From a virus, in IMG/VR virus record IMGVR_UViG_3300007770_001284, positions 1-64,000 of that record: 64,000 nucleotides of DNA; one strand, written 5' to 3'. Below the pieces are notes generated by a model. That model saw only the letters and a list, made by a program, of their open reading frames with translations. It did no database searches and had not been told where the DNA came from. Below are positions 3,471 through 49,700 of this stretch, one piece after another. Every line of letters starts with the position of its first letter. Position 1 is the stretch's first letter. Both the position numbers and the translations under genes were made by a program.

Positions 3471-3480
3471 TGTTGATGGT

Positions 3481-10096: not shown

Positions 10097-10118
10097 ATAA
10101 TTGAAGGTAGGAATGGAT

Positions 10119-12996: not shown

Positions 12997-13013
12997 ACGC
13001 CGGAAGGTGTATC

Positions 13014-13307: not shown

Positions 13308-13322
13308 CTTTTGTTTTTCTTC

Positions 13323-13351: not shown

Positions 13352-13379
13352 ATAAATGAAGGTCGGGGTAGATAGTCCT

Positions 13380-13735: not shown

Positions 13736-13740
13736 CTCCT

Positions 13741-13784
13741 CTACCCTTTTACCCATTACACTCTACCCTTTTACCCATTACACA
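13741..13784 (+). repeat. tandem 22-base repeat
   Basis: CTACCCTTTTACCCATTACA plus two bases occurs twice head to tail directly before ATG 13787. The sequence is pyrimidine-rich and has no Shine-Dalgarno. It could be a protein-binding site controlling translation or a recent slippage duplication. Confidence 0.85.
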
Positions 13785-13786
13785 TC

Positions 13787-21791: not shown

Positions 21792-22205
21792 ATGAAGATG
21801 TCCAAAAGACAATTAAGAAAAATTATTAGAGAAGTAGCTGCAGAGTCTGAACACGGTGACTTTTCAAAGAATTCCATAATCCGAGCCGCCCGGCCGGAGA
21901 TCAGCGGTTTCAGTCCTGACGGCAGCTCTGGCAGTTCTGGTTATCCTGGCCCTGCCGATTGGAAGTTGTATCCACCAGAAACCATGGACGAAGCTGAAGG
22001 CTGGATCGCCGCTGCTATAGAGATGAACGATGGGTTGATGAAGGCTGAAGAAGCCCTTGAGAAAGGAGAGTTCTACGAGGCGCGAGATGCTTTTGTTAAA
22101 TATGTCTATCCTGTGCAGATAAAATTTGAAGAGCACGGTGCCGCAGATACCGAAGGTAGAAGGGTAGCTGCTTCGTGGCTGGAAGATAAAGGATTTAGAT
22201 GGTAA
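21792..22205 (+). CDS. tagged protein (paralogue of 203-604)
   Basis: 137 residues. Tag MKMSKRQLRKIIREV (Ile12, Glu14). The rest pairs with the protein at 203: GYPGPADW, PPET, the helix with IEMNDG, YPVQIKFEEHGAADTEGR and the final W. About 110 residues of shared domain make this the clearest duplicated payload of the tag family. Confidence 0.9.
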   Translation: MKMSKRQLRKIIREVAAESEHGDFSKNSIIRAARPEISGFSPDGSSGSSGYPGPADWKLYPPETMDEAEGWIAAAIEMNDGLMKAEEALEKGEFYEARDAFVKYVYPVQIKFEEHGAADTEGRRVAASWLEDKGFRW

Positions 22206-22206
22206 A

Positions 22207-22665
22207 ATGAAAATTACAAAGAGACAGCTCAAAAGAATTATTAGAGAAGAAAAACGAAAAATGATGGATGAGTGTCCTGGTGATATGGACATGGGTCACT
22301 CCGCTGACGTCGTTGAAATTAGTCCAGAACCCGTTGAGTCTGATTCTGGGTTGATGGCAGAGACAACCTCTGCTGACGGTGAGCTAGTTGTTGAAATGGA
22401 ACTAGCAAGTAGGGCCCTCGAACAAGTTGTTGAGTCAGTCCAGAATGCTGCTCATCTATGCCCGGATTGTACCGGTCCAGTAGCTGCTCAAGCTCAGATA
22501 ATGGAAGCAATGGTCGCACAGGCCGAAGCCCTCCAGGAGATGCTGGAGGCACAAGCTGGTCTTGTTGCAGAATCTGTTGAACTTGACTTTACAGGCGATG
22601 TCGGTGAGCTTCCTGGTGAAGATGCCTTCGCTATAGGTTACACAGCCGGCTCTCAAGGGTTATAA
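22207..22665 (+). CDS. tagged acidic helical protein
   Basis: 152 residues, one base after the previous stop (GGTAAAATGA). Tag MKITKRQLKRIIREE. The payload is acidic and Ala/Met-rich with long helices (EMELASRALEQVVESVQ, QAQIMEAMVAQAEALQEMLEAQAGL) and two Cys (CPDC). It ends ELPGEDAFAIGYTAG. The strong charge contrast between basic tag and acidic body fits a detachable sorting peptide. Confidence 0.82.
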   Translation: MKITKRQLKRIIREEKRKMMDECPGDMDMGHSADVVEISPEPVESDSGLMAETTSADGELVVEMELASRALEQVVESVQNAAHLCPDCTGPVAAQAQIMEAMVAQAEALQEMLEAQAGLVAESVELDFTGDVGELPGEDAFAIGYTAGSQGL

Positions 22666-26032: not shown

Positions 26033-26361
26033 AAATCACAAGGCGACAGCTAAGAAGAATAATCAAAGAGCAGATGTCAAACCCACAGGTTGGGTTTAAG
26101 CCGCTGGAGTCTTTCCAGATCCCATATCGCAATTATGGGTATGAGGGTCGTAGGATCATTGATCGAGATCGAGCGTGGCTTGAATTTGTTCCAAAGGGTT
26201 CACCACCAAAGACTCAAGAAGACATGTTTAGAACAGTAACACTTTTAGATAGCGATGATCCAGAAATAGGGCTCGCTATGGCAACTGTGCACGCTCCGAA
26301 GTCTGCCGGTCCGGTGGAAAGCTATGACGTTTACAGCGTATACGCTACCACTACAGGATAA
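26029..26361 (+). CDS. tagged small protein
   Basis: 110 residues from ATG 26029 (ATGA overlap); an upstream in-frame ATG at 26005 hides the tag. Tag MKITRRQLRRIIKEQ. The payload looks like a single alpha/beta domain (RIIDRDRAWLEFVPKG, LAMATVHAPKSAG, SYDVYSVYATT). No family recognised. Confidence 0.82.
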   Translation: MKITRRQLRRIIKEQMSNPQVGFKPLESFQIPYRNYGYEGRRIIDRDRAWLEFVPKGSPPKTQEDMFRTVTLLDSDDPEIGLAMATVHAPKSAGPVESYDVYSVYATTTG

Positions 26362-26364: not shown

Positions 26365-26664
26365 ATGAAAATTACTCGCCGCCAGCTTAGAAGAATTATT
26401 AGGGAAGCGATCCACGATCCTGGTGATGATGCGCTTATCGATACCCTTATATTTGGGTGGGAACAGTCGGGCATCGCCGATCCAGATCTCCCCCCCCAGC
26501 GGAAAGGAGACGCAGCTCTGGCATGGGTTTCTAAGAATGAGCCAGATATTGCACGTCAAATTAACGCACTTTCTACTCATAAGCTAAAAGCCTTGTACAG
26601 CGCGGCATTTGACGAAGATGCAGACCGCGGTCATAAAACAAGCGCGATGGACTGGAATAGATAA
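26365..26664 (+). CDS. tagged small protein
   Basis: 99 residues. Tag MKITRRQLRRIIREA. The first 27 bases are identical to those of the next tagged gene at 26664, showing recent copying of the tag itself. Payload helical (IARQINALSTHKLKALYSAAF). Its stop overlaps the next ATG by one base (TAATG). Confidence 0.82.
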   Translation: MKITRRQLRRIIREAIHDPGDDALIDTLIFGWEQSGIADPDLPPQRKGDAALAWVSKNEPDIARQINALSTHKLKALYSAAFDEDADRGHKTSAMDWNR

Positions 26665-27041
26665 TGAAAATTACTCGCCGCCAGCTTAGACAGATAATTC
26701 GAGAGTCTATCTTGGAAGAGAGGAAAGGCGCATCAGCATCTGATATCGCTCGTTTCAAACCACAGCTTATTGAGTGGACAGAGATTCTAATCGATGAATT
26801 GGCTGAGGCGGTACCTACTATGAAAGAGATGAGTGAGAAGGCTCGGACAAATATGGTGCGAAGCCTTGCTGACAAAGTTTCTGTTGAGCTAACTGGCTTG
26901 ACAAGCGGCATGAGTTATTCTTCGCAGAAGCGAATTGAAAAAAGAGCTGAGGATAAAGCTCATCAGAAATGGGACAGAGACCGAAGAGCTCGAGCGTCAA
27001 ATGTACGTTATTATGGTGAGTGGGAAGGATTTTCAGGGTAA
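26664..27041 (+). CDS. tagged small protein
   Basis: 125 residues. Tag MKITRRQLRQIIRES. Payload helical and charged (LIEWTEILIDELAEAVPTMKEMSEKARTNM split by short loops; basic C-terminus DKAHQKWDRDRRARAS). No family recognised. Followed by the GGTAAAATGA junction. Confidence 0.82.
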   Translation: MKITRRQLRQIIRESILEERKGASASDIARFKPQLIEWTEILIDELAEAVPTMKEMSEKARTNMVRSLADKVSVELTGLTSGMSYSSQKRIEKRAEDKAHQKWDRDRRARASNVRYYGEWEGFSG

Positions 27042-27042: not shown

Positions 27043-27321
27043 ATGAAGATTACAAAAAATCAGATTAGAAGAATTCTCAAAGAAACCATGTACAATTTGT
27101 GGGCAAATTACAGTCCTGAATCGATCAAGGCAGCCGAGGCGGCCTTAAATATTTTAGGCCATGACCCGAACGTTCGCGGTGCAGAAGTTGAAAATGAAAT
27201 TCACAATTATCTAGAGAATACCCTTGGCATGAGCTCATCAAGCGATGAAATTTTTGCTATCGGTGATGAAGCAATGGAAGCAGCAGAAGTGATGCTTGGT
27301 CTTCCGAAGGATACGCTCTAA
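27043..27321 (+). CDS. tagged small protein
   Basis: 92 residues from ATG 27043; the frame is open from 26935 but that part overlaps the previous gene. Tag MKITKNQIRRILKET, the only copy with Leu at 12, still fitting (I/L)-x-E. Payload acidic and helical (SIKAAEAALNIL, EVENEIHNYLENTLGM). One-base overlap with the next gene. Confidence 0.82.
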   Translation: MKITKNQIRRILKETMYNLWANYSPESIKAAEAALNILGHDPNVRGAEVENEIHNYLENTLGMSSSSDEIFAIGDEAMEAAEVMLGLPKDTL

Positions 27322-27617
27322 TGAAAATTACCACTAGACAGCTTAGAAGTCTCATCCGCGAAGTTCTTATTAAAGAACAAGTTGTCGGCTATACAGCTCC
27401 AGAAGAAAAAGGGGATGATGACGATGGTGGTGGATACTTAGATGTGGGTGATATGGGAGTTGACATCTCTCAATCGTCTGAGGAAGGAACGCAAGCATCA
27501 GGACAAGCAGTGAAGAGTCTAACGCAGCAGCGACAACAAGATCTAGATACTGGTGATGTCGAGGCAGCCGAATCAGATGAACAACAACTGTCAGCAGCTC
27601 AAAAGATGAGAGGATAA
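27321..27617 (+). CDS. tagged small acidic protein
   Basis: 98 residues. Tag MKITTRQLRSLIREV. Payload low-complexity, Asp/Gly and Gln/Ser rich (EKGDDDDGGGYLDVGDMG; LTQQRQQDLDTGDVEAAES), probably disordered. No family recognised. Confidence 0.8.
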   Translation: MKITTRQLRSLIREVLIKEQVVGYTAPEEKGDDDDGGGYLDVGDMGVDISQSSEEGTQASGQAVKSLTQQRQQDLDTGDVEAAESDEQQLSAAQKMRG

Positions 27618-27618: not shown

Positions 27619-28242
27619 ATGAAAGTTACAAAAAGACAACTATTAAAGATTATACGCGAAGAGGCCGAAGCGTCAGACGAAGCCGGCTCGGTAACTGTCA
27701 CCACTGAAACTGATGAAGTTGATGAAAATGACGAACAAATGAAGCACGATGATGATGGGGATGTCACGGAATCTTTTCGTAGAGAGCTGCGACGTATCGT
27801 AAGAAAAGAATATCGACGAGGAATCCGTGAGGGCCGGACCGGGCACGCTGTGGGGACTGGCTTTGCAGGATGGAGACCGTCGAGTCGTCCCAATTTTGCA
27901 ACATCATATTCCAGCGAAGCAAAATACGCGGATTCGAGATATCAGACTCATCCCAAGTATAAAACAGGTGAGCTGGATACGCTGGCTGAGGTACAGGGGT
28001 GGACTTCCGAATATACGTTGGAGAGTAACGAGAGTGGTGCTTTGAGAACAAAGGCTCGTATCGATCACGGCTCTGTTGTTGTAGAGTTCGGACATTCAAT
28101 GACTTTAAGACTAGACGCTGACGATACTTTTGCGCTATCTAAATTACTACAGGACGCCGCGAGCAGACTCGCCATCGACGAACGAGAATACATCACATTA
28201 CGTGATCCGCAAGCAGGCGGTCTCACAGAGGAAGACTACTAG
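27619..28242 (+). CDS. tagged protein with internal tag-like segment
   Basis: 207 residues. Tag MKVTKRQLLKIIREE, an acidic spacer (TDEVDENDEQMKHDDDGD), then at 54-64 RRELRRIVRKE, which resembles the tag again, followed by the body. The C-terminal 110 residues form a beta-rich domain (SGALRTKARIDHGSVVVEFGHSMTLRLD) ending in a helix (LSKLLQDAASRLAIDE). If the internal segment is also cut, an N-terminal propeptide of about 64 residues would be removed. Confidence 0.83.
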   Translation: MKVTKRQLLKIIREEAEASDEAGSVTVTTETDEVDENDEQMKHDDDGDVTESFRRELRRIVRKEYRRGIREGRTGHAVGTGFAGWRPSSRPNFATSYSSEAKYADSRYQTHPKYKTGELDTLAEVQGWTSEYTLESNESGALRTKARIDHGSVVVEFGHSMTLRLDADDTFALSKLLQDAASRLAIDEREYITLRDPQAGGLTEEDY

Positions 28243-28386: not shown

Positions 28387-28580
28387 ACCATACGGCACCA
28401 TTGGTGGGAATTCTTTTGATGGCTGGTTGCCCAAAGAAAATCGAAGAAGAAAAACCGGTGCATATTTGGCCTACTGACCCGATTAGACTAGAGCTGCCAG
28501 AAGAAGATTATGATCTAGAAGATTTACCAGAAGCTGGAGAAGATACCGGCGCTAAGGAAGAAAGCAATGAAATTCACTAA
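28383..28580 (+). CDS. putative small acidic lipoprotein
   Basis: 65 residues from ATG 28383 (ATGA overlap). The N-terminus MNHTAPLVGILLMAGCPKK has a lipobox (LMAGC, Cys16) but the signal lacks the usual basic start. The mature part is acidic (EEDYDLEDLPEAGEDTG). It overlaps the next tagged gene by 14 bases. An outer-membrane spanin-like role is possible from size alone. Confidence 0.55.
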   Translation: MNHTAPLVGILLMAGCPKKIEEEKPVHIWPTDPIRLELPEEDYDLEDLPEAGEDTGAKEESNEIH

Positions 28581-29262
28581 GCGACAAATTTTAAGAATTA
28601 TACATGAAGAAGTTAAAGGTCTCGAAGATCTTGAAGGCGTTGATAGCATTGAGGGTATCGAATCACCAGTTGACGTCGAAGCAGTTGAAGATGCCTGGGC
28701 TGGTGGCGAGAACATAGTCGAGCCCATGGACCATTCAGAAGCGGGTGGTGGTGAAAAAGAACCAACCACAGGAGTTGAGGTCCAAGAAATAGTCGAACGT
28801 GTTGCTCGTAAACTACGAATCAAGCGGCTTATTAAAGAAATTGATTGGGTTGATCCTATGGCATTCTTACCAGACGCAGAAGCAACAGAACAAGCTTGGG
28901 CTGCAGGAGATAGACTTTCACTCATGATCGATCAGCCGGGTCTAGTTGGCGAAGAAGAACCAGCAGAGGAGAGCGAAGAAGAAATTTCTGAACGGATTCT
29001 TCGAAAGGTACGACTTAAGAAATTAGTGCGGGAAGCAGAAGAAGAAGCTGCTCCAGCTAATCCTGAAGCGAAGACAACAGCAGGGAAAAAAGCTGGTAAA
29101 GCCCTCGATAAAAGTGGCGTTCAACCTTTACTAATCGCGATTGATGAAGCAGGATCAGAGGCAGCAGTGGAAGAAATATTGACTCAACTAATCGGTCAGC
29201 TTTCAGATGATGGGAAAAAGTATCTTAAGAAAGCAATGTCAGATATTATTCGAGCACAATAA
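28567..29262 (+). CDS. tagged protein with two internal tag-like repeats
   Basis: 231 residues. Tag MKFTKRQILRIIHEE. Two similar acidic modules follow, each with an AWAgG(E/D) motif (43-47 and 110-114) and closing in a basic tag-like helix: VARKLRIKRLIKEI (79-92) and ILRKVRLKKLVREA (144-157). A Lys/Ala linker then leads to a helical C-terminal domain (VEEILTQLIGQLSDDGKKYLKKAM). The layout, payload units separated by tag-like basic helices with I/L/V-x-E, looks like a processed polyprotein. Function unknown. Confidence 0.83.
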   Translation: MKFTKRQILRIIHEEVKGLEDLEGVDSIEGIESPVDVEAVEDAWAGGENIVEPMDHSEAGGGEKEPTTGVEVQEIVERVARKLRIKRLIKEIDWVDPMAFLPDAEATEQAWAAGDRLSLMIDQPGLVGEEEPAEESEEEISERILRKVRLKKLVREAEEEAAPANPEAKTTAGKKAGKALDKSGVQPLLIAIDEAGSEAAVEEILTQLIGQLSDDGKKYLKKAMSDIIRAQ

Positions 29263-31154: not shown

Positions 31155-31625
31155 ATGAATCTTTTTCCTGTTACTCGTATGAGTATTCTTAATCCCGTCT
31201 CTGAGTTTGATCGTGTTTTTGATGCACTTTTGAATGCAACCACAGCCACCCGTGCTAGCACGGCGGCGGGATCTCCCAGCGCATATGATGATATGCGTAC
31301 GCCTACTATCCCTCGCGCAAATATTCTAGAAAGTAAGGGAGGGTACTCAATCGAGATGGCCGTGCCCGGGTTTTCTCGAGGTGATTTCAACATTTCTGTT
31401 GATGATAATGTACTGACTGTATCCGTCAGCTCTGAAGATACGCCAGAATATACGGACGCTCTAAAGCGACAAGAGTTTAACTACGCCTCATTTGAGCGTA
31501 GCTGGACGTTGCCTGATGGAGTGAGTGCTGGTGGAATTGACGCTGAATATAATTCGGGTATTCTTTCTCTAAGCATTCCTGTTGAGTCTAAGTCTGCGCG
31601 GAAGCTTCAGATTGAAGTTAAGTAA
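31155..31625 (+). CDS. small heat-shock protein (Hsp20 family)
   Basis: 156 residues; GGAGG precedes ATG 31155. The alpha-crystallin domain is clear: ESKGGYSIEMAVPGFSRGDFNISVDDNVLTVSV, RSWTLPDGVSAGGIDAEYNSGILSLSIPV, split by an insertion containing the partner loop, with the usual A-x-x-x-G-x-L motif as YNSGILSL. It acts as an ATP-independent holdase; phage Hsp20 genes are known from T4-like cyanophages. Stand-alone unit with a strong terminator. Confidence 0.93.
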   Translation: MNLFPVTRMSILNPVSEFDRVFDALLNATTATRASTAAGSPSAYDDMRTPTIPRANILESKGGYSIEMAVPGFSRGDFNISVDDNVLTVSVSSEDTPEYTDALKRQEFNYASFERSWTLPDGVSAGGIDAEYNSGILSLSIPVESKSARKLQIEVK

Positions 31626-33155: not shown

Positions 33156-34784
33156 ATGAGCTTTACGTATAACGGGTACTTTCCGTATCCATCAATTAGA
33201 GACCAGCAGTCAGAAGCTGTCGACTTTATCTTAGATTCTTTCATTAATAAACAAAAGCGTTTTGTTATTTTGGAAGCAGGGACTGGTGTGGGGAAAAGTG
33301 CTGTAGGTCTCACGGTTGCTCGTTATATGACCGCGAATTTCTCGCCGAAGGGGGAGAGTGTTGCTGGTGGATATTTCCTCACAACTCAAAAAATCCTACA
33401 GCAACAATACATCAATGATTTTGGTGGAACAGCTGGAGCGATGAAGTCGATTATGTCTTCAACAAACTACAAGTGCAGCTATAACAAGAAGGCCACTTGT
33501 GCTGAAAGTTTACGAGCATTAAGGACGGCAGAAAAAGGATCACCGTTTTGGAGAGCATGCACGTTTAGTTGCAAGTATAGAAAAACAAAAGATGAATTTA
33601 TTCAGTCTTCCGAAGGCGTCACCAATTTTCCATACTTTCTGGCAGAAACGCAGTACGCGGGAAAGCTAAAACAGCGACAAGTTCTTGTGATTGATGAAGC
33701 TCACAACGCATGTGGAGAGCTCAGCAAATTTATTGAAATAACAATATCAGATAAATTTTGCAAGGACTTTCTAAAATTTCCGTTACCAACTGGGGGCACC
33801 CCCGCTCAATACATCAAGTGGATAAAAGACACGTACGTTCCAGCCATCGCTTCGAGGCTTAAGCATCTTGAGCAAATGATGGAAAAATATGTTGGTCTAA
33901 AAGACAAGATGCGTAGCGGAGAATTTGCTAACGTTGCAAAGAAATTCGAGATGTTAGATAAGCATGTATGTAAAATGCGGAGATTTCTAAAGCTATACTC
34001 TACTGATAACTGGGTGTTAAATGAAATTCCCGCAGATGGAAGGTCAGGAAGAAAAATAGAATTTAAGCCTATTGATGTTGCTCCCTTTTCAAGCGAAATG
34101 CTTCTAAATTATGGCGACCACGTTTTGCTTATGTCTGCCACGATATTAGACGCGGAAGCGTTTGTGGAAATGTTGGGTATACCCAAAGACCAGTACACCT
34201 TTATTTCTATGCCCACACCATTCCCGCCCGAGAATCGTCCTGTTTTTTATTCTGGTATGGGGAAAATGAGCTCTAAAACGATCGAAGAAACGTTACCCAA
34301 GATGGCACAGGCAGTAAAAGCGATTCTTGAGCAGCACAAGGGTGAGAAGGGTATCATTCACTGCCATTCTTACAGGATCGTGAATTATCTTAAAAAGAAC
34401 ATCCGCAGCAAGAGATTGCTTTCCCATAATTCTGATAATCGCGATGCGATATTAGAAAAGCATCGAAAATCAAAATCTGCAACGGTTTTGTTATCACCCT
34501 CTATGACAGAGGGTGTTGATTTGCACGGTGATTTAAGCCGGTTTCAAATCATATGTAAGATACCATACCCATATTTGGGCGATAAACTTATAAGAAAAAA
34601 AATGAATAAGTGGAAGTGGTGGTATCCACTGCAGACGGCCAAAACTATTGTACAAGGAACAGGCAGGTCTGTTAGATCGCTAGATGACACTGCTGTAACG
34701 TACATCTTAGATTCTGACTGGGAGCTTTTTTACAATCGAAATCGAAATATATTTCCAGATTCTTTTAGGGAGTCATTAAAATGA
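33156..34784 (+). CDS. DinG/XPD-like superfamily 2 DNA helicase
   Basis: 542 residues. GTGVGKS at 42-48 (motif I), VIDEAH 178-183 (motif II, DEAH), LLMSATILD (motif III), GVDLHGDLSRFQ (motif V) and QGTGRSVRS (motif VI). Four cysteines at 107, 115, 135 and 139 between motifs Ia and II are placed as in the iron-sulfur cluster domain of XPD/DinG. It should be a 5'-3' helicase acting in replication or repair. Coupled to the nucleotidyltransferase gene by ATGA. Confidence 0.9.
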   Translation: MSFTYNGYFPYPSIRDQQSEAVDFILDSFINKQKRFVILEAGTGVGKSAVGLTVARYMTANFSPKGESVAGGYFLTTQKILQQQYINDFGGTAGAMKSIMSSTNYKCSYNKKATCAESLRALRTAEKGSPFWRACTFSCKYRKTKDEFIQSSEGVTNFPYFLAETQYAGKLKQRQVLVIDEAHNACGELSKFIEITISDKFCKDFLKFPLPTGGTPAQYIKWIKDTYVPAIASRLKHLEQMMEKYVGLKDKMRSGEFANVAKKFEMLDKHVCKMRRFLKLYSTDNWVLNEIPADGRSGRKIEFKPIDVAPFSSEMLLNYGDHVLLMSATILDAEAFVEMLGIPKDQYTFISMPTPFPPENRPVFYSGMGKMSSKTIEETLPKMAQAVKAILEQHKGEKGIIHCHSYRIVNYLKKNIRSKRLLSHNSDNRDAILEKHRKSKSATVLLSPSMTEGVDLHGDLSRFQIICKIPYPYLGDKLIRKKMNKWKWWYPLQTAKTIVQGTGRSVRSLDDTAVTYILDSDWELFYNRNRNIFPDSFRESLK

Positions 34785-35314: not shown

Positions 35315-35743
35315 ATGAAAAAAAAAGAGTTTCACGGTGCTGGATTTTTCTTAATAGATCCTGCAACGAATCTTATGTTGGCGCTCGTTAACAATCATGG
35401 GCTTTATGATTTTCCGAAGGGTGTTAAAGAGCCTGGGGAGCTACCATTAGAAACAGCAACAAGAGAATGCTTCGAAGAATGCTCTATATTAATAGAAGAA
35501 GAAGAGTTGATGAGCTGCGGTCCTTTTAGAGAAGGTGGACTAATAATGTTTTGCGCAGAAACGTCAAAGAAGCCAGTAATTTTCCCAAATGAAAAAACTG
35601 GTATCTTAGAGCATACGTCATATGAGTGGGTAAAACCAGAAGTGTTTAAAGAAAGTTGTGTTGGATATCTAAAGCCGATGCTTCAGAAAATTGTGTCATC
35701 GCTGGCAGACCAATCACACCCTCTAGTCTCGGACCATACTTAA
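35315..35743 (+). CDS. Nudix hydrolase
   Basis: 142 residues. Residues 36-58 fit the Nudix box: G-x5-E, x7, RECFEE, with Ser instead of the last Gly. The order of strands before and after the box fits the small (di)nucleoside-polyphosphate or nucleotide-sugar hydrolases. Role unknown; phage Nudix enzymes act on modified nucleotides, ADP-ribose or capped RNA. First gene of the unit leading into DUF444-SpoVR-PrkA. Confidence 0.86.
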   Translation: MKKKEFHGAGFFLIDPATNLMLALVNNHGLYDFPKGVKEPGELPLETATRECFEECSILIEEEELMSCGPFREGGLIMFCAETSKKPVIFPNEKTGILEHTSYEWVKPEVFKESCVGYLKPMLQKIVSSLADQSHPLVSDHT

Positions 35744-35756: not shown

Positions 35757-36923
35757 ATGTCAATTTTTCAAAGACACAAGACAATCGCTGATCGATCTGC
35801 TGGAGATCGATCCCGACATCGCAAAAAAATTGAGCGCGCTATTAAAGAGGGTATCTATAATATCGTTGCAGAAGAATCCATAATAGGAAAAGAGGGAAAG
35901 AAGAAATTTCGGATTCCTGTCCGCGGTATTAAGGAGTATCGTTTTGTCTATGGTGACAACGGATCAAAAAGAGTGGGCTCTGCGCAGGGTAAAGATGTCA
36001 AGCGTGGACAAGTGATCGGTAAAAAAGAGCAAGCAGAAGCTCCCGGAGAAGGCGAGGCTGGAAACCAGAAAGGAGAAGAGTATTACGAAGTAGAGCTTAC
36101 GCTAGACCAATTATCAGAATATCTTTTCAAAGATTTAGAGCTTCCAAACTTTGAAAAAAAGAAAAACATGAATGTGATATCGAAAAAGATCAAACGTCAT
36201 GGCTACAGAAGCAAAGGTATCCGACCACGATTAGACAAAAAAAAGACTGTAGTTGAAAAACTTAAGCGAAAAAATAAAAGCAAATTTATTTCAAGTGCAG
36301 AAAAGCAAGAAGAAGAAAGTTTCCCGTTCCACGATAATGACCTAAAGTATAGACACTACAAGGTTCACGAGAAAAAAAGCTCTAATGCAGTCATATTCTT
36401 CTTAATGGATATTTCAGGATCGATGTCAAAGCCAAAAAAATATCTAGCGCGAAGCTTCTTTTTTCTGTTATATCATTTTATTAGAGCGAGATATGATACA
36501 GTTGATTTAGTTTTTGTGGCTCATGATGTAGAGGCCTACGAAGTGACAGAAGAACAATTTTTTGGACGAGGATCTTCAGGGGGAACACTGGTATCCAGCG
36601 CGCTGAGCATGACAGATAACGTTATATCATCTAGATATCACCCTAATAGTTGGAATGTATATATTTTTCAGTGCTCTGATGGTGATAACTGGCCTACTGA
36701 TAACCAGAAGACGACTGAGCTAGCAAATCGGTTGCTTGAAAAAGTTCAATTTTTTGGATATTGTCAAATAGAGCCGAACGCAGAAAGAGCCGCTCACCCC
36801 AACCATGGCAGCTTACAAGAAGTGTATCAGCCTCTTATAGGACAAAAGTTTAAAACTGCTGAGGTCAGCTCAAAAGAGCATATCTGGCCAGCATTTAGAA
36901 CGTTTTTTGGAAATGATTTATGA
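35757..36923 (+). CDS. DUF444 (YeaH/YhbH) VWA protein
   Basis: 388 residues. The start FQRHKTIADRSAGDRSRHRKKIERAI, split here across the family's signature, and a second signature later, mark DUF444. A basic, Gly/Glu-rich linker follows; FFLMDISGSM with Asp218 is the MIDAS of a C-terminal VWA domain, and QCSDGDNWPTDN is a conserved family stretch. In bacteria this gene accompanies prkA and spoVR (yeaG-yeaH-ycgB in E. coli). The same trio follows here in the order DUF444, SpoVR, PrkA. Overlaps spoVR by four bases. Confidence 0.93.
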   Translation: MSIFQRHKTIADRSAGDRSRHRKKIERAIKEGIYNIVAEESIIGKEGKKKFRIPVRGIKEYRFVYGDNGSKRVGSAQGKDVKRGQVIGKKEQAEAPGEGEAGNQKGEEYYEVELTLDQLSEYLFKDLELPNFEKKKNMNVISKKIKRHGYRSKGIRPRLDKKKTVVEKLKRKNKSKFISSAEKQEEESFPFHDNDLKYRHYKVHEKKSSNAVIFFLMDISGSMSKPKKYLARSFFFLLYHFIRARYDTVDLVFVAHDVEAYEVTEEQFFGRGSSGGTLVSSALSMTDNVISSRYHPNSWNVYIFQCSDGDNWPTDNQKTTELANRLLEKVQFFGYCQIEPNAERAAHPNHGSLQEVYQPLIGQKFKTAEVSSKEHIWPAFRTFFGNDL

Positions 36924-38230
36924 GCGCTAATTTCTTAAAATCTCTTGAAGCGTGGGATGAAAAGATAGTCAAGCTAGCTAGCGAATACGGGTTAGATTGG
37001 TTTCCTATCATTTATGAAACCTGTGACTATTATGAGATGATTGGTAACATGGCATATCACGGCATGCCCACGCATTATAGGCATTGGAGCTTCGGGAAAT
37101 CATTCGAGCGTACCCATGCAATGTATGATGCTGGACTAGAGGGTCTTCCATACGAACTAATAATAAACAGCGATCCTTCGTTAGCCTACTTGATGGAAGA
37201 AAACCCATTGTACTTACAAGTTTTGATTATGTGCCACTGCGTTGGTCACTCAGATTTTTTTAAGAACAATATTACTTTTGCAAATACAGGGCCAGACCAT
37301 ATTCTATTACGCATGCGCAATGCAAAGAGATTTGTCGACGGTCTAATAGAAGATCCTTCAATCGGTGTACAAAGGGTAGAAGAAATTCTAGATGCTGCTC
37401 ATGCCCTTTCTCTTCAAGTGCCAAGACGTTATAAAAAATATGTGACGCAGAAAGAACAAAAAATGCACTTAATTCATGATATCAAAAACGGTAAATATGA
37501 GAATGCTGACATAACACCCAGCCCTAAAGCAATACCGGTTAGTCCAGAGCAAAATATTTTGGCATTCCTCGCCGAGTGCAGTCCTCATCTCGAAGACTGG
37601 GAGCGGGAGCTATTACACTTCGCGCGCGAGGATGCTGAATATTTCATGCCACAAATTAGGACAAAGATCATGAATGAAGGGTGGGCGTCATTTTGGCATT
37701 ACAGATTGATGCACGACCTTCAGCTCCCAACCTCGATGCATATTCCTTTTCTCAAAATGCACAATGAAGTTACAAAACCTCACCTGGGGAGCATTAACCC
37801 TTACCATTTGGGATTTTATCTTTTTAGAAAAATAGAAGAGCGCCACGGGCTAAAAGAATGTTTCATCGCAAGAGAAGCATTAAATGATGAATCGTTTATA
37901 AGACAATATTTAACAGAGGAAGATTGTGTTAATTTAAACTTGTTTACGTTTGGACTGGACAAAAAAAGCTATGTAATAGAGGATGTATCGGATGAACCTG
38001 GATGGAAATCAGTGAAAGAAAACCTAATCAAACAGGTTTCTGCGAATAATATTCCTTCAATTATAGTTGACAGAGTGGACAGCGCAAACATACTGTGCTT
38101 GAAACACGATCATGACGGCCGCGATTTGGAGCTAGAGTATGCAGAATCAGTTATTGAACACATCACAACGTTATGGGGGGATGTAGTTAAACTTGATACG
38201 TTCATTGAAGATGAGCCATTTGAGATTTAA
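36920..38230 (+). CDS. SpoVR family protein
   Basis: 436 residues. GLDWFPIIYETCDYYEMIG, MPTHYRHWSFGKSFER, YELIINSDPSLAYLMEEN and MCHCVGHSDFFKNN are near-diagnostic for SpoVR/YcgB, as are EGWASFWHY and NPYHLGFYLFRKIEERHG further on. Slightly shorter than the bacterial proteins (about 470-510). The biochemical role is unknown; in bacteria it is linked to stationary phase or spore cortex together with PrkA. Confidence 0.95.
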   Translation: MSANFLKSLEAWDEKIVKLASEYGLDWFPIIYETCDYYEMIGNMAYHGMPTHYRHWSFGKSFERTHAMYDAGLEGLPYELIINSDPSLAYLMEENPLYLQVLIMCHCVGHSDFFKNNITFANTGPDHILLRMRNAKRFVDGLIEDPSIGVQRVEEILDAAHALSLQVPRRYKKYVTQKEQKMHLIHDIKNGKYENADITPSPKAIPVSPEQNILAFLAECSPHLEDWERELLHFAREDAEYFMPQIRTKIMNEGWASFWHYRLMHDLQLPTSMHIPFLKMHNEVTKPHLGSINPYHLGFYLFRKIEERHGLKECFIAREALNDESFIRQYLTEEDCVNLNLFTFGLDKKSYVIEDVSDEPGWKSVKENLIKQVSANNIPSIIVDRVDSANILCLKHDHDGRDLELEYAESVIEHITTLWGDVVKLDTFIEDEPFEI

Positions 38231-38244
38231 TACGGAGCAAAAAT

Positions 38245-40179
38245 ATGTCAAAGAATAAGAGCAAATATCTTGATATCATTACTAGTCAAAGAAAAAAGAA
38301 GTCTTCTGAAAAGTTTGAGGGAAGTTTGCTTGACTATTTTGCACTCTTAGAAAAGAATCCATCGTTAGCTGACCGCGCGCATAAGAGGCTTTACGATGTT
38401 ATAACGTCACACGGGGTCTCAGTACTTGAAGACGAAGACCCACGAAAGTACAAGCTTTTTGATGGTGACAATGTTAAGATTTATGATTATTTCGCTGATG
38501 AATTTTTTGGAATGGAAAATGTTATTTCAAAAATCTTAAGATACCTGAGGTCTGCTGCGCATAATGGTGAAGAGTCCAGACAGGTGTTATTATTAATGGG
38601 TCCAGTTGGTGCCGGGAAATCTGCTTTAACAGAGCATATCAAAGCTTCGCTTGAAAGTGTAAAATATTATCACCTAAAAGACGATCCGCAGAGAGGCGAT
38701 CCACTACAGCTAGTTCCGCGATCGCTACGGAAACGTTTCAGCAAGATGCTTAACGTTTCAATTGAGGGAGATATTTCTCCTGTTGCCAGGTTCTTATTGT
38801 TCGAAAAGTACGAGGGGTCTTACGAAGAATTTGAAGTTGTTGAAACAACATTCTCTCAACGTGCTCGTCGGGGGATCGCAACAGTACCGCCAATGGATGC
38901 AAACAGCCAAGATGTTTCAGTGTTAATTGGGTCAGAAGACATTTCGAAGCTAGACAAATATTCTGAAGATGACCCCCGGGCGCTATCCCTAAATGGTGCG
39001 TTTAACGTCGGTAACAGAGGGCTGGTCGAACTTGTGGAGGTCTTTAAGAACGAAATTGAGTTTCTCCATACTATCATTACTGCAACACAGGAGAAGAGGA
39101 TTCCTTCCCCCGGAAAGCATGACATGCTACACTTCGACGGTGTTATTCTTGCTCATTGTAATGAAGCCGAATGGAACCGGTTTCAAAGCGAACATACAAA
39201 CGAGGCAATATTAGATAGAATTGTTAAAGTTGAAGTACCGTATGTTCTAGAGCTAGCGCAAGAAATGAAGATATATCAAAAAATTCTTGATCGTTCCCAT
39301 TTTTCTTCTCATATCGCGCCTCATACACTTCGTGTGGCGTCAATGTTTTCTATTCTTAGTCGGCTCCATGCTAGCCAAAAGTGCGATCTTCTTACGAAGC
39401 TTAAGATTTATAACGGCGAAGATGTTGTTGAAAAGGGTCGTGTCAAAAAAATTGATATTAAAGACCTAAGAGACGAAGCTCCGCATGAGGGAATGCAGGG
39501 TATTTCAACGCGCTTTATAATGAAGGCTATCGATAATGCTTTGAGCGATTCTGATAAAGATTTTATTACTCCTGTTTCTATTCTTGACTCATTAGTGAAG
39601 CAGGTCAAAGAGCAACTTACTGATTTTGATTTTCAAAACCACTGTCTAGATCTGCTCAGAAATACCGTACGTGACGAGTATCTTCGTATGCTGGAAAACG
39701 AAATTGCAAAAGCGTTTATAACAGCATACGAAGAACAAGCACAGGCTATTTTCGAAAATTACCTCGACAATGCCGAAGCCTTCACAACTCACTCTAAAAT
39801 GAAAGACAAAGTAACAAAGGAAGAGCGCACCCCTGACGAAGAATTTATGAAAGCAATTGAGGGAGCGATCGGGGTGAGCAATTCTGGAAGAGAGGGCTTC
39901 AGGGCTGACGTTACCGCATATATGTTTTCAAAAATGAGACGTGGCGAAGTTGTAGACTATACATCTTATGAACCGTTAAAAGACGCAATCGAAACATATC
40001 TCATCACATCTGTGAAAGATCTGGCACGAATTGTTACAAAATCAAAAACAAGAGATGACGACCAAAAACAAAAGTACTCAAGCATGGTACAAACGCTGAT
40101 CGACGAATATGGTTATACAGCTGCGTCCGCGGAAGAGATCTTGGTGTTCGCCAGCAATAACTTATGGAGAGATAGCTAA
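38245..40179 (+). CDS. prkA: PrkA-family AAA/serine protein kinase
   Basis: 644 residues, the same length as E. coli YeaG. An N-terminal helical part leads to LLMGPVGAGKSAL with Walker A 119-126 and the AAA core typical of PrkA; RRGIATVPPMDANSQDVSVLIGSED and NRGLVELVEVFKNEIEFLHTI, shown here in pieces, are family signatures; the C-terminal part should be the kinase-like domain. PrkA proteins are linked to nutrient limitation and stationary-phase control, and some are AAA-type proteases rather than kinases. Presence on a phage suggests manipulation of host starvation physiology. One-base overlap with the next gene. Confidence 0.95.
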   Translation: MSKNKSKYLDIITSQRKKKSSEKFEGSLLDYFALLEKNPSLADRAHKRLYDVITSHGVSVLEDEDPRKYKLFDGDNVKIYDYFADEFFGMENVISKILRYLRSAAHNGEESRQVLLLMGPVGAGKSALTEHIKASLESVKYYHLKDDPQRGDPLQLVPRSLRKRFSKMLNVSIEGDISPVARFLLFEKYEGSYEEFEVVETTFSQRARRGIATVPPMDANSQDVSVLIGSEDISKLDKYSEDDPRALSLNGAFNVGNRGLVELVEVFKNEIEFLHTIITATQEKRIPSPGKHDMLHFDGVILAHCNEAEWNRFQSEHTNEAILDRIVKVEVPYVLELAQEMKIYQKILDRSHFSSHIAPHTLRVASMFSILSRLHASQKCDLLTKLKIYNGEDVVEKGRVKKIDIKDLRDEAPHEGMQGISTRFIMKAIDNALSDSDKDFITPVSILDSLVKQVKEQLTDFDFQNHCLDLLRNTVRDEYLRMLENEIAKAFITAYEEQAQAIFENYLDNAEAFTTHSKMKDKVTKEERTPDEEFMKAIEGAIGVSNSGREGFRADVTAYMFSKMRRGEVVDYTSYEPLKDAIETYLITSVKDLARIVTKSKTRDDDQKQKYSSMVQTLIDEYGYTAASAEEILVFASNNLWRDS

Positions 40180-40433
40180 TGTCAAAAATTGGGTTTAGCG
40201 AGGGGCTATTAGTGTTTGCAATAGCTGCATTATGGCACAATCAGATACTGGCCATTATTGCGATGAGTTTGGCAATTTTCGGTGCAGTCGTTCGTGTATC
40301 AATAGAGCAAAATCAAAAAGCTAAAGAAAACGAAGCAAAGGCGGAGGCGGCAAAATTATTGAATGAACAAGTTCAAGAAGTCGGCGATGCCATTGGCAGC
40401 GTTTTTAGGAAAAAAAAGAATAATTTTCACTGA
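40179..40433 (+). CDS. small membrane protein with coiled-coil tail
   Basis: 84 residues. One or two hydrophobic stretches (GLLVFAIAALW; ILAIIAMSLAIFGAVVRV) are followed by a charged helix (EQNQKAKENEAKAEAAKLLNEQ) and a Lys-rich end. It overlaps prkA by one base, so is translated with it; it could tether that complex to the membrane. Confidence 0.75.
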   Translation: MSKIGFSEGLLVFAIAALWHNQILAIIAMSLAIFGAVVRVSIEQNQKAKENEAKAEAAKLLNEQVQEVGDAIGSVFRKKKNNFH

Positions 40434-40441: not shown

Positions 40442-41779
40442 ATGGACCTGTACGCCTCAGTTGTTGCCGGCGAAGAAGCTGATAAAGTTACTCGTGCAGC
40501 TGTAAATTCTATCGATCACCTTATAAATGATTTGCGTGACAATCGAAATTCAATAATTCTTGGTCATAGATTGCATACACTTGGGTGGTCTGATTCTTTT
40601 CGTCTTCTCATTGACGGCTTAGATGCATGTCCACTAGTATACCGAAATTTAATATTAAATTCAGCTCACACTATATATCGTCAGTGCTCACTGGCTGTTC
40701 CGCTTTACCTTGTTACACTACAAGAATTATTAAAAAATCACAAAAGAGAAGAGCTAACAAAAAAGCTTAGAGCTACTATTGATAAGCAAGTTCTTCATAA
40801 AAAAAGAGTTTCTTCTATAGCTGCGAAAGATGTATGGAAAAAAACAGTCCATGATGAATTAACAAACCAGATTTTGTGTGTTTTATCAGATGCAATTGAT
40901 TCAGCGGGGGCACTGGGCGCTATAGAGCTAAAAAGAGACAAGTCACTTCGTGTAGAGGTTGACGAGGGTGTTGTTGTGTCTGCATCTATCCACCCTCAAT
41001 TTGCCGCTAGGGTTTCTAGTTTTCTTAGATTAGAAGACTGCAAGGTTGTTGTCATTGACGGAGCTGTTACAAGCGTCGGTGAATTGAACAGGCTGTTAGT
41101 ACGTGCAAATGAGAGCAAGCTAAAAATTGCAATATTTGCCAGCCAGTTCTCTGATGAAGTGCTGAATACGCTGGTAGTGAATTGGCAGCAGGGAAAGCTA
41201 ATAGTCGTTCCTGCAATTTTCAATGAAGATCTTGATGATATTAACCAGGTTAGAGATCTTGCTTCTACTGCTGGTGTTATACCAATTTCAACAGACGTAG
41301 GTAATTCATTGTCATCACTTGATATCGATGAAGTTAAAGAGATGAAAGGAGTGATATTTGATAACATACGAAAGCAGTGTGAAATTATTTTAGACACCGA
41401 TAGTCTGGGAAGAGTTCTTACATTGAGAGCGGAATTACAGACAAAGAGAAGTAAAGAAGAAGTTGAAGACATTAAAGACGTTTTGGCTAGTCGCTTAACC
41501 AAGCTAACAAGCAGAAAAACAACAATCTATATTCCCTGCGAATCTGATGAGTTCGGGCTAGTTAAAGATAGAGCTGCTAGCTTATTTACATTTGTGAAGT
41601 GTTGCGCAAATGAAGGTGTTATCCACACTCACGAAATCTATAAAGATGTGGGTGCCAGTACGCTCCCACAGCTGCCTATTTTTTTACCAGCTTACTCTGC
41701 ACACCTTTCTATTCTTAAAGCAATTACAGACTGTGAACAGATACATAAAATTGGTGCATTAATTTTAGTGGATCGGTGA
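40442..41779 (+). CDS. GroEL-like protein lacking ATPase motifs
   Basis: 445 residues. From about 145 to 393 it follows the GroEL order: intermediate segment (SAGALGAIEL), apical domain (VVVIDGAVTSVGELNRLLV, FSDEVLNTLVVN, DLASTAGVIPIS), and the return helices (RLTKLTSRKTTIYI, AASLFTFVKCCANEGVI). The N-terminal 140 residues are helical but have no GPKG or GDGTTT motif, the residue aligned with GroEL Asp398 appears to be Ser, and only about 50 residues follow EGVI instead of about 140. It therefore probably cannot hydrolyse ATP. It may modify the host chaperonin or bind substrates as an isolated apical unit. Confidence 0.78.
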   Translation: MDLYASVVAGEEADKVTRAAVNSIDHLINDLRDNRNSIILGHRLHTLGWSDSFRLLIDGLDACPLVYRNLILNSAHTIYRQCSLAVPLYLVTLQELLKNHKREELTKKLRATIDKQVLHKKRVSSIAAKDVWKKTVHDELTNQILCVLSDAIDSAGALGAIELKRDKSLRVEVDEGVVVSASIHPQFAARVSSFLRLEDCKVVVIDGAVTSVGELNRLLVRANESKLKIAIFASQFSDEVLNTLVVNWQQGKLIVVPAIFNEDLDDINQVRDLASTAGVIPISTDVGNSLSSLDIDEVKEMKGVIFDNIRKQCEIILDTDSLGRVLTLRAELQTKRSKEEVEDIKDVLASRLTKLTSRKTTIYIPCESDEFGLVKDRAASLFTFVKCCANEGVIHTHEIYKDVGASTLPQLPIFLPAYSAHLSILKAITDCEQIHKIGALILVDR

Positions 41780-43512: not shown

Positions 43513-43839
43513 TTAATGTTTGTGATGGGGGCCCTTAAATTCTTTGAGTGTTTTTGGGCCCGAGGTTTTCAAAAATTGCTTCGCTGCTTTCTCGATTTGA
43601 CAAATACGCATCCTGGTAACATTAAACATGTCTCCCACCTCTTGCAACGTAAACGGTCCGGTTCGCGCAGCCAGAATGATACAGTTATGATGCTTTTCAT
43701 TTTCCATGGCATGCCAATAACGACATGAAGTTTTTTCGCACATCTGACCCGCTTCTTTATGCGCCGCAAAGCAAGTCATACCCTCGATTATCTCAGGCTC
43801 ATCGATGTTATCATTTTTTAGTGAATCATTATTATCCAT
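43513..43839 (-). CDS. sigma-70 region 4-like regulator
   Basis: 108 residues, minus strand. FTLQEVGDMFNVTRMRICQIEKAAKQFLK in two parts is the helix-turn-helix of sigma-70 region 4 (TLEEVG..F.VTRERIRQIE..A...L). Before it, three Cys and two His (MTCFAA, CEKTSCRYWH) may bind zinc. No region 2, so it cannot be a full sigma factor. It may direct polymerase to the phage promoters or act as an anti-sigma/appropriator. Divergent from phoH. Confidence 0.82.
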   Translation of the reverse strand: MDNNDSLKNDNIDEPEIIEGMTCFAAHKEAGQMCEKTSCRYWHAMENEKHHNCIILAARTGPFTLQEVGDMFNVTRMRICQIEKAAKQFLKTSGPKTLKEFKGPHHKH

Positions 43840-43909
43840 ATAGCTTCCTCTTAGTTCGATCTAACGTTATTCTAAAAGGAAACAATTGCATTTTTCAAGG
43901 AGAATAAAT

Positions 43910-45217
43910 TTGAAAGATAAAAGAAAGAGGTTTGTCTTAGACACGAGTGTATTGCTGTACGATAAAAAAGCCATCCATTCGTTCCCTGGAAATGATGTTA
44001 TCTTACCTCTACAAGTGATGGATGAGCTTGATAGATTTAAAGAAAAATCTGGAATTGTAGGAGAAGCAGCAAGATATATCAATCGATTTCTCGATGACTT
44101 GCGTGACATTGGGCGACTAGACGAAGGAGTGGAAGTACCTGATGAGTATTCAGAAAAACAAACAATTCGTATTACACTTAATGATAACAAGAGCATGTTA
44201 CCCCCCGGGTTAGCTCATGATAGCGGCGATAATATGATACTAGCCACATGTATGAATGAGAAGGCCAAGGGGGATGCAGATGCCATCGTGGTCATCACCA
44301 AGGACATCAACCTAAGGGTAAAGTGCGATGCACTTGGAATACGATCTGAGGACTATTACAAGGACCATATAGAAGTAGGTCAGGTGGAATATTCTGGATG
44401 GCGAAAGATTACGATCGTTAAAGAAGAGATTGATAATTTTTTCAAAAATGGTGTGATCGATATTGACGGAGATTTTTTCCCAAATGAGTTTGTTGTTTTA
44501 AGCGATGGTGGAAACTCATCAGCTTTGTCAATGCATCGTAAGGGACGTCTACACTCATTAGAATGTAAGCCGGCACCTATGATGTCAAATTTTGAAGCAA
44601 AAAATAAAGAGCAGGCTTTCGCGGCTGAGGCCTTGTTACGAAGTGATATTCCGTTAGTGAGCTTAACAGGTCTAGCAGGTTCCGGTAAAACCTACGTTGC
44701 GCTAATGGCTGGACTCGATGGAATTCAGCGCGGGAACTACGATCGTATTGTAATAAGTCGTTCTATCCAGCCCGTTGGTCGAGAACTCGGCTTTTTACCA
44801 GGAGATGTTGATGATAAAATGCAGCCCTGGCTGGCACCGATTTTAGATAATTTTCGAACTATGTTATCAGACAAAGATTACACATACTTCCAGTTGATGA
44901 AAGATCGTGGTGAGCTCGAGGTTGCGCCGCTGGCGTACATCCGCGGGCGAACATTCAACAACTCATTTATTATCGTTGATGAAGCACAGAATGCAACAAT
45001 CCACGAATTGAAAACCCTCATCACCAGGGTGGGGAAAAATTCAAAGATTGTTTTGCTAGGTGATACTGACCAGATAGATACACCGTATATAAATAAATTG
45101 AGCAATGGGTTGTCTATCGTAGTACATAAATTCAAAAATGAACCGGACGCTGCACACATCAAATTGGTAAGAGGTCAAAGATCAAATATAGCTTCTAGGG
45201 CTTCTGCTATTCTTTAA
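43910..45217 (+). CDS. phoH: PIN-PhoH protein
   Basis: 435 residues from TTG 43910, seven bases after AAGGAG; a TTG at 43886 lies before that site and is less likely. N-terminal PIN domain (RFVLDTSVLLYD with Asp11, DSGDN about 104-108, VVITKDINLR about 128-136), then the PhoH ATPase with GLAGSGKT 254-261 and FIIVDEAQNAT. This is the PhoH2-type fusion, an RNA helicase/RNase. PhoH is a frequent marine phage gene. Divergent from the sigma-like gene. Confidence 0.93.
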   Translation: MKDKRKRFVLDTSVLLYDKKAIHSFPGNDVILPLQVMDELDRFKEKSGIVGEAARYINRFLDDLRDIGRLDEGVEVPDEYSEKQTIRITLNDNKSMLPPGLAHDSGDNMILATCMNEKAKGDADAIVVITKDINLRVKCDALGIRSEDYYKDHIEVGQVEYSGWRKITIVKEEIDNFFKNGVIDIDGDFFPNEFVVLSDGGNSSALSMHRKGRLHSLECKPAPMMSNFEAKNKEQAFAAEALLRSDIPLVSLTGLAGSGKTYVALMAGLDGIQRGNYDRIVISRSIQPVGRELGFLPGDVDDKMQPWLAPILDNFRTMLSDKDYTYFQLMKDRGELEVAPLAYIRGRTFNNSFIIVDEAQNATIHELKTLITRVGKNSKIVLLGDTDQIDTPYINKLSNGLSIVVHKFKNEPDAAHIKLVRGQRSNIASRASAIL

Positions 45218-46724: not shown

Positions 46725-49700
46725 ATGGCAAAAGACTTTCGCACAAATCAGATTAGAACCTCAACGATCATCGGTTCCGGATCGCTCAGCACAGCAACAC
46801 CATCAGGTCATCAGGTTGGGTTAGTAATATGTAGCGGCTCGGGCGCATCGGATTTCGATGGAGGATATGTAGACCCCAATATACTCAAGTTCGTAGGCGA
46901 TGATGTCTGGATGGTCGTTAGTGGTACAGCTGACCATACTTCGTATATGGCAGAACAAAAACCTGCTGGTGGGTCTGTCTTGTTCCTGGGTGACGTCGTA
47001 GTTAGCGGAACGCTGTGGGCTGAAAGAAGCGTCATCGAAGTTGACAACCAAGTTATCGGTGACATGATGGTACCGAACGCGTTGGTGGCCGGCACCGAAC
47101 CTGAGGATCTAGCGGGTGGGGTAGCAGCCAAACTTCTTGTCGATCCGTTCACAACGAACGCAGGAGGAACTGGAACGCAGGATGGTACAGTATCGTTCAA
47201 TATCGTTACAGCGCCCGGCGCTGGTGTCGCTTGGAGATACGACGGCACATTAAAGACAGACGTTTTCTTCCACGTTTCAGGTAGCCGTGACGTAAGGAAT
47301 ACTAACAATAGGGGTCTTGCACTGTTCGACGGTGACGTGCACGTCTCAGGTAACTTCAGTGTCGATGAAGGCGGTACCTTCACCACAGACATTATTCTCG
47401 ATAACGATACGACCGCCCCTCCTGTCATAAAGCATGCTAAGGATTACGGCGGCAGTGGTGAGGTGGTCTATAGCGAGTACGCGATTAGAAACGTGGACTC
47501 CGGTCCGAGCTGGTGGCATCTCGACATTGTACACTCTGGAGCGAATGCTTCTCCCAGCGGCATAGACTCTGGCATAAGACTGAAGGTAAACGACGGTGCT
47601 ACAGATCTTGCAGATCGATCGGCATTCGTTGTATCAGCATCAGGTGATATTGCCATTGACCCAGGGAAAGAGATAAGGTTCGCTGGCAGAAGCGGCGGGT
47701 ATGGACCACATATCGAATATAATGTGCCAGATAGTTCCTCACCGACCAATTACGCCAATGGGCAACTTGCCTTTAAGCATTATTATTCATCACTTGACAC
47801 CCCAACATCATTCAACTTTACGGGTGGTGTAGTAACAGCGTCGAATGGAATTTACTTACCTGATGCGGATACATTTGGAGGTGATTATATCGCCTCGGCC
47901 CGAGGGCAAACTCGGGGAATTATGTTCGCGGGTAGCTCTGGAGACGACGGTGATGGAGTCGGCCCAGGCGATGCAGGGATATATTACAACGAAGATAACC
48001 TAGTAAATGAAGTCTTGGGCGGAACTTATAACACTCTGTGCATGGTCGCGTCGAATACCGGCTCCAACATCCATATCGAAGCTGGAAATTATTTAACCTT
48101 ACGTGCCGGAACGCGCGCTGAGCCGGGTGATATCGAGATCAGTGGTTCGAATGACATGTGGCTCAGGGCCCTCGGGTCACTTAGGGCAGATGTTGAAACA
48201 AATATACTCATGGTTCCGCAAGGTTACACAACTTTTGCGGGGGATCTTGCCGCTGTTCCTACCCCACAAGGTGACGTCAAGTTCTTTGTTTCAGGTGCGG
48301 TTGGTGGAAAACATGGGGGATCAAGAAGCATAGCGCTATTCGGTGGGGACCTTGTCACGAGTGGAGTCCTTTATGTTGATGGTACCACAGGCGACGGCGG
48401 CGCTCCTGTTTACGGTGGTTCTGCTCTGGTCCTGCGTGGGGGTATTACATGGGATATGAGCGGATCGACGGATCCCGATGGAGATTCCTGGATATGGGAA
48501 AATAGTGACGATCTCTTTGTGAAGGGGAGAGACCACCTCTATCTTCATGCTTCAGGTACTGCTGGTTCTGGTACCGTAACAGTGTCTGGATCGGTTGCTG
48601 ATGTCTATGCCGCGGCGGGTAGTGCTACGGTAAGCGGTTCTAATCAAGTTATCCTCCTCGCTGGTAATGATGTACTCTCTACAGCGGCCGATGACCATGT
48701 GTTCATAAGCGGTGAAACGGCATTCTTTGCAGGTGACGACAAGTCGGTTCCTGTCGCTGCTAGCGATGTTCACTTCTTAGTCTCTGGCTCGCTAAATACA
48801 AGACATACCTCAACGAGGGGTACAGCATTATTCACCGGTGATCTTGTCACGAGTGGAGTCCTTTATGCTGACGGTGCTATCACTGATGGTGGCGCACCTG
48901 GATATGGTGGATCCAGTTTGGTCCTCCGTAACGGAATCGCATGGGATGTATCGGGTTCTGCTGGAGACAATGGTCAAGCCTGGTTGTGGGAATTTGGCGA
49001 TGTTCTTTACTTGAAGGGCAAAGATGGTGTAACTCTCCACGCATCTGGTACAGACGGTTCTGGAACAGCAAATATAAGCGGATCAATTGTCAATGTTTAT
49101 GCAGGCGCAGGGAGTGCTACTTTAAGCTCATCTCTAGATACCTTCATCAAGTCTGGCGATGATATTGTACTGTCGGCATCTGACAAGATCTTCATGTATC
49201 CCGAAGGCGGAAAGATCTACGCGGCAGAGAATACAGCTGTTGGCTACAATCAGTGCACAATTGATTTAACAGTTCCTGCCTTCCAACTGAGAGCCTCAGA
49301 CTCAGATTATTTCCAGATTGATGTGGGCGCTGATGGTAGCACCATATTCACTACGGTGGATGGAGACGCCAATGCGGCGAACTTGACCATGAACGTCGAT
49401 GGTGCCGTTGACATAAACGCAGTGAGTAATGTGACACTTGACGTTTCGGCCGGCCCTATCTCAATCGGAACTACTGCAGTTGCGCAACAAATAACAATCG
49501 GTGGAGACACCAGCACCCGGACCGAGATTGAGCTGAACGCGATAGCTATAGACGTTAATGCCGGAAGCGGCGGTGTAGACATCGGAGCGGGTGGTGACAT
49601 AACGTTAAGCGGCTCCGGCGATCTGGAGCTAATCGGAACCACCGGCGTTACGATTCGGGGTGATGTATCACTAACAGACAACCTAACTGTATTTGGTGAT

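Follow-up and report, generated by a model that had tools for sequence, protein, structure and literature searches.

A conserved DUF444-SpoVR-PrkA gene set in a T4-like jumbo-phage lineage, a candidate cassette for setting the starvation state of the host

The window analysed here, a stretch of 64,000 nucleotides, corresponds to positions 1-64000 of a 254,743-bp IMG/VR record, and the analysis covered this window together with database searches. Three full-length contiguous ORFs, encoding DUF444, SpoVR and PrkA proteins (hereafter the trio), follow one another on the + strand. They and the genes around them are as follows, in window coordinates:

20309-20803, + strand: SpoT-like HD-domain protein, putative small alarmone hydrolase (TIGR00691, E 5e-14; PF13328, E 2e-12)
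31155-31625: Hsp20 gene
33156-34784, + strand: DinG-type helicase (phrog_2488, E 2e-110)
35315-35743, + strand: Nudix hydrolase gene (PF00293), left border of the trio
35757-36923, + strand: DUF444 (YeaH/YhbH), 388 aa (PF04285, 374 bits, E 1e-111)
36920-38230, + strand: SpoVR (YcgB), 436 aa (PF04293, 391 bits, E 5e-117; SpoVR_C, 32 bits)
38245-40179, + strand: PrkA (YeaG), 644 aa (PF08298, 441 bits, E 3e-132; PF06798, 251 bits, E 2e-74)
40179-40433, + strand: 84-aa ORF following PrkA, N-terminal half hydrophobic, present in 11 of 80 related loci
40442-41779, + strand: GroEL-like protein, 445 aa (phrog_5725 and NCBIfam GroEL), right border
43886-45217, + strand: PIN-PhoH protein (PF02562, PF13638), far end of the conserved block

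The initial annotation had described the trio as complete and intact, and the full-length frames and strong Pfam matches to all three families bear this out. The family scores lie far above the Pfam cut-offs (25 bits for both PrkA domains; both SpoVR domains also exceed theirs), so that chance matches are excluded. The genes were further said to overlap, which is true of DUF444 and SpoVR, sharing 4 nt (ATGA), but not of SpoVR and PrkA, which are separated by a gap of 14 nt. Likewise, the Nudix and GroEL-like genes flank the trio as claimed, except that the 84-aa ORF, which matched nothing in family profile searches, intervenes between PrkA and the GroEL-like gene. The diagnostic residues of all three proteins, whose conservation had been left to be checked by alignment, are invariant across the aligned phages and bacteria.

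The DUF444 protein has a complete MIDAS motif (D218xS220xS222, T277 and D308) that is kept in the phages and bacteria aligned. Its model adopts a VWA fold (Z 18.0 over 163 residues, rmsd 2.6), and Foldseek matches of the model include NorD of NorQD and Rea1-MIDAS; a profile search against PDB sequences returned nothing convincing. The presence of a VWA domain in DUF444 is thus predicted with strong support from the model. NorQ-NorD (PDB 9qhe) and Rea1-MIDAS each join an AAA+ ATPase to a VWA/MIDAS partner, as PrkA and DUF444 may do. Unlike these systems, the trio has SpoVR as a putative third subunit, and PrkA carries a C-terminal domain of its own.

PrkA displays the expected AAA+ motifs, consisting of the Walker A (G119-S126), E262/E265 in the Walker-B region, N306/E307 and D324-R325, with the Walker A, E262/E265 and D324-R325 conserved in 110 sequences. 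In the C-terminal domain, K427 corresponds to K426 of E. coli YeaG and is invariant in 81 phage-clade copies; both K427 and T422 are common to the window clade (defined below) and the proteobacterial rows of the alignment. The protein is homologous to a chain with a solved structure (9xip_A, E 3e-91). The biochemical output of PrkA is uncertain, because neither kinase nor protease activity was detectable for the Bacillus anthracis protein, which is nevertheless required for sporulation to proceed normally and for survival of osmotic stress (PMC13001217). Nor is the family specific to spore formers, since 133 of 144 Bdellovibrionota genomes have PrkA at E<1e-60.

In SpoVR, two histidines arranged as H106xxxH110 and a glutamate, E253, are invariant in the groups tallied from a 105-sequence alignment. 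The glutamate of a classical HExxH motif is absent, as position 107 is Cys, Val or Ala in every group tallied. Foldseek of the AF2 model (pLDDT 85.5) gave no PDB match at E<=0.001 and one divergent viral model, and a profile search against PDB sequences found nothing convincing. The top rows of a VIA-align comparison are zincin peptidases of several families, with Z from 10.4 to 6.1. The best row is 3cmn (Z 10.4, 192 aligned residues, rmsd 4.0), which we take to be zincin-like, followed by Pz peptidase (Z 9.4, 179 aligned, rmsd 4.7), aminopeptidase N (Z 7.7), M32 carboxypeptidase (Z 6.7), ACE (Z 6.6) and DPP III (Z 6.3). A zincin-like fold is a candidate for SpoVR with moderate support, as the likeness comes from one model and, at Z ~10, models rich in helices can be aligned through their arrangement alone. 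Together, the model and the invariant His/His/Glu suggest that SpoVR probably binds a metal, and the missing glutamate leads us to read it as a metal-site protein lacking classical peptidase chemistry. This reading, with its two invariant histidines and glutamate, makes metal binding directly testable.

A chromosomal origin of the contig can be rejected. In addition to being an IMG/VR record, it carries a T4-type large terminase at 140.6-141.6 kb of the full record, beyond the window, and the block of genes around the trio recurs on many viral contigs, confirming the phage-like character assigned to it at the outset. Among named phages, the terminase is closest to that of Microcystis phage Mel-JY01 (39%) and those of the Flavobacterium immuto phages. 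The window phage belongs to a T4-like jumbo-phage lineage.

Scanning viral contigs with the window PrkA yielded 151 relatives, of which 80, at 63-100% identity, were kept; these related viral loci are referred to as the window clade. Nearly all of the 80 have DUF444, SpoVR and PrkA in this order on one strand. An independent scan with SpoVR found the contiguous set, again in this order, in 76 of 80 loci, the remaining four having DUF444 and SpoVR only (three) or SpoVR and PrkA only (one), as far as the contigs show. The terminase family of the window is common to 10 of the 11 trio contigs longer than 200 kb, at 55-76% identity. The clade is likely to be marine, going by the sample series and a South Pacific-style MAG name. 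The trio is missing from 12 of 15 terminase-bearing contigs, which are not counter-examples, as by the listed coordinates the trio position, ~77-102 kb upstream, falls outside them. A second set of 20 loci has other neighbourhoods, and here too the trio remains together, often as a + strand island among - strand genes. Those loci with other neighbourhoods that entered the tree (L039, L053 and L057) are nested within the window clade.

For the trio genes, dN/dS is 0.013-0.039, counting only pairs with measurable dS and with synonymous sites near saturation. The flanking genes give 0.07-0.2 (Nudix) and 0.13-0.22 (GroEL-like), so that the trio lies at or below its neighbours. These ratios indicate that the trio is under strong purifying selection in the window clade. 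One pair of loci, L014 and L015, stands apart in that the dS of PrkA is 0.25 against 1.4-2.5 for the neighbouring genes, which suggests a recent recombination of PrkA alone.

The DinG-type helicase served as marker gene for an empty-site comparison. The trio is present in 14 of 14 loci with a helicase identity of >=56%. Loci at 42-48% are trio-less and keep the order helicase-(Nudix)-(GroEL-like)-D154-D86-D64-(sigma-like)-PhoH, where the Nudix gene is retained in L440, L443 and L445. In L440 the GroEL-like gene directly follows Nudix, and the distance from helicase to PhoH is 4.5 kb compared with 10.7 kb in the window. No PrkA was found elsewhere on the trio-less sister contigs, which are fragments. 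Meanwhile, the PhoH end of the block is conserved in loci with and without the trio. Such a clean empty site in sister phages indicates that an older phage block accommodates the trio as a single unit, and the GroEL-like gene, which adjoins Nudix in the trio-less L440, predates the trio. This GroEL-like protein covers only about residues 150-385 of GroEL, corresponding to the apical/intermediate part.

The block has further genes. A small sigma-70 region 4 protein (43513-43839, - strand; PF04545, E 1e-8) occupies the same place whether or not the trio is present. In the window-clade contig L175 (PBIO01000025.1, 101 kb), a Tubulin/FtsZ-like gene (12863-14074; PF00091, 30.8 bits, just below cut-off) lies between D64 and the sigma-like gene.

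Given these neighbours, the AAA+/VWA machine could instead serve proteostasis or morphogenesis, its targets for folding or assembly being proteins of the phage itself, with no action on host dormancy. The GroEL-like gene lies directly downstream of the trio in most loci, with Hsp20 and PhoH in the neighbourhood, and a canonical GroEL is found upstream in 8 of the loci in the second context. AAA+/VWA pairs are, as a general matter, often target-specific chaperones. However, sister phages keep the GroEL-like/PhoH block without the trio, other phages keep the trio away from that block, and the bacterial relatives work in starved, non-infected cells. We regard such a role as unlikely.

The initial annotation had suggested that phylogeny could tell whether the three genes were acquired together and from which host group. 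In unrooted trees of 45-49 sequences per gene, the window clade forms one clade for all three genes (support 100/100, 99/99 and 99/95) on a long stem. Its position is the same each time, between Proteobacteria together with three megaphages and a group made up of Bdellovibrionota, Firmicutes, Chloroflexi and the Thermus phages. This common placement argues for joint inheritance. The donor is not among the sequences sampled, which come from a limited set of phyla. No bacterial copy exceeds ~37% identity among the sampled bacteria, which speaks against a recent gain from any of them; the only higher match, at 71%, is L175, itself a window-clade contig. L175 was binned in a Halobacteriovorax MAG, which is either a lead to the host or a binning error, and the MAG has a PrkA trio of its own on another contig, ~37% identical.

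The bacterial prkA-DUF444-spoVR operon, represented by yeaG-yeaH and ycgB of E. coli and by prkA, yhbH and spoVR of Bacillus, resembles the window trio in its families, adjacency, single strand and conserved residues, at ~32-37% identity. The gene order differs. In all sampled bacterial loci with a complete trio, namely those of Thermomicrobium, rhizobia, Legionella, Cupriavidus, Pontibacillus, Methylobacterium and 11 Bdellovibrionota, the genes run PrkA-DUF444-SpoVR, of which the DUF444-SpoVR-PrkA order of the window is a cyclic permutation.

A search of other large phages for the same genes, also proposed at the outset, found them in Thermus phages, megaphages and proteobacterial-type loci. 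The Thermus phages TMA/phiYS40, phiLo, MN1 and Lalka8 have a complete trio in the same order as the window; in TMA an additional gene separates SpoVR from PrkA. The shared order might point to a common phage origin, but a single clade of Thermus and window phages is rejected by the AU test for PrkA (p 0.001) and DUF444 (p 9e-5) and is borderline for SpoVR (p 0.057). The two are thus separate gains, the order having arisen twice or come from unsampled donors. A scan of viral contigs with the Thermus-phage PrkA found no relatives.

Four 600-kb megaphages (LR745206, LR756502, LR756504 and LR756511) also possess trio genes, in the bacterial order where the genes are together; in LR756502 SpoVR lies apart from the rest. 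LR756511 groups with Bdellovibrionota in the trees and the other three with Proteobacteria. Scanning with a proteobacterial PrkA gave 196 further viral loci, some of which, on short contigs, may be host DNA. PrkA-DUF444-SpoVR is the order both in these proteobacterial-type loci and in SpoVR loci of the megaphage type. In Ralstonia phage RsoM2USA, SpoVR is ORF28 and PrkA is ORF30 (PMC8504454), from which we infer that ORF29 is the DUF444 gene. Taken together, the trees and the AU test indicate that phages captured the trio at least four separate times, more if RsoM2USA is counted.

Large phages carry many host genes, so the trio might be a host operon acquired by chance that has no role in the phage, or even an assembly artefact. 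More than 150 viral PrkA loci, long-term retention in the same order, the repeated independent gains and the low dN/dS all oppose this, making passive carriage highly improbable; for the window clade, selection and recurrence refute it.

In bacteria, the set had been linked to starvation, and this is supported by studies of E. coli, where YeaG and YeaH together quiet metabolism in nitrogen-starved cells as a ‘metabolic brake’ (PMC4664914, PMC10954441). The initial annotation had read the set on a phage as a sign of control over host dormancy or of infection of slow-growing cells, a suggestion that the intact, selected trio and the starvation link support in part. Within the window clade the whole set was taken and never scattered pieces, and its repeated capture argues for a single machine made up of the three proteins. 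The following mechanism can be envisioned. The ancestor of the T4-like jumbo-phage lineage would have gained the trio once, deep in the past, and selection would have kept it. PrkA would act as the AAA+ ATPase, presumably assembled as a ring, with DUF444 as its VWA/MIDAS partner or adaptor, much as NorD serves NorQ. SpoVR would be the effector or client, zincin-like and probably metal-bound, lacking the peptidase glutamate, and the three may form one complex. During infection, this ATP-driven machine would remodel host targets and set the starvation or stress state of the host, allowing the long jumbo-phage cycle to finish in a nutrient-limited cell. That the trio is a functional AAA+/VWA/SpoVR cassette setting the host starvation state is the reading we lean towards, with modest confidence, its host effect being drawn from E. 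coli yeaG-yeaH.

The SpoT-like HD protein of the window fits an interest in the starvation state of the host, as does a SpoT-like HD gene that precedes the trio by ~5 kb or less in the related loci L024, L028, L062, L077 and L175. In which direction the effect would run is ambiguous, as a SpoT-like hydrolase would favour growth, opposing the quiescence promoted by YeaG/YeaH. The same protein would also blunt starvation signalling, in keeping with another possibility, namely that the phage proteins poison or replace the host PrkA system, as a dominant negative or decoy, and so block quiescence or a stress programme. The long divergence from the sampled bacterial copies (<~37% identity) is likewise compatible with interference. 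On the other hand, a decoy would need one subunit only and should lose residues, whereas catalytic and metal-site residues are kept in all three proteins. Interference accordingly seems to us somewhat less probable even than a role in morphogenesis.

Returning to the cassette reading, the repeated capture by giant phages suggests that control of a starving host pays during infection. More tentatively, and with the doubts outweighing our confidence, the trio may be a recurrently captured and selected ‘metabolic brake’ of giant phages, an AAA+/VWA/pseudo-zincin machine gained at least four times and fixed in one large lineage, that together with phage alarmone hydrolases takes over starved hosts.

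The occurrence of trio genes on phages is not new. They are already annotated in Thermus phages, PHROGs has families for all three, RsoM2USA is a further precedent, and a study of the ETNP oxygen minimum zone reported spoVR as the viral ‘sporulation’ gene of highest abundance (PMC8940887). In the literature searched, mostly outside subscription journals, no description of a recurrent, conserved phage cassette of this kind was found. Many of the genes listed for ocean viromes as viral ‘spoVR sporulation AMGs’ may encode a single subunit of such a cassette, for which spores are not needed. Although the trio is common in bacteria and linked there to surviving starvation, its mechanism is unsettled, and the phage copies offer a compact, divergent set for biochemistry.

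Elsewhere in the window, a MoxR-like AAA+ ATPase (8701-9789) adjoins a DUF2201 protein (10101-11537) that has a putative metallopeptidase domain with an intact HEMLH (HExxH) motif and a C-terminal VWA domain. Neither DUF444 nor SpoVR gave a signal in sequence comparison with this DUF2201 protein. The pair represents a second AAA+/VWA/zincin-type module, partly parallel to the trio, with no detectable sequence kinship.

Two adjacent sulfotransferase-like genes lie at 2679-4690, and two giant proteins (46725-53171, 2148 aa; 53171-58606, 1811 aa) have no PHROGs match. Finally, a common N-terminal tag resembling MKITKRQLRRIIREE precedes otherwise unrelated sequence in nine ORFs of the window (203-604, 21792-22205, 22207-22665, 26005-26361, 26365-26664, 26664-27041, 27321-27617, 27619-28242 and 28567-29262) and is possibly a sorting or capsid-targeting signal.
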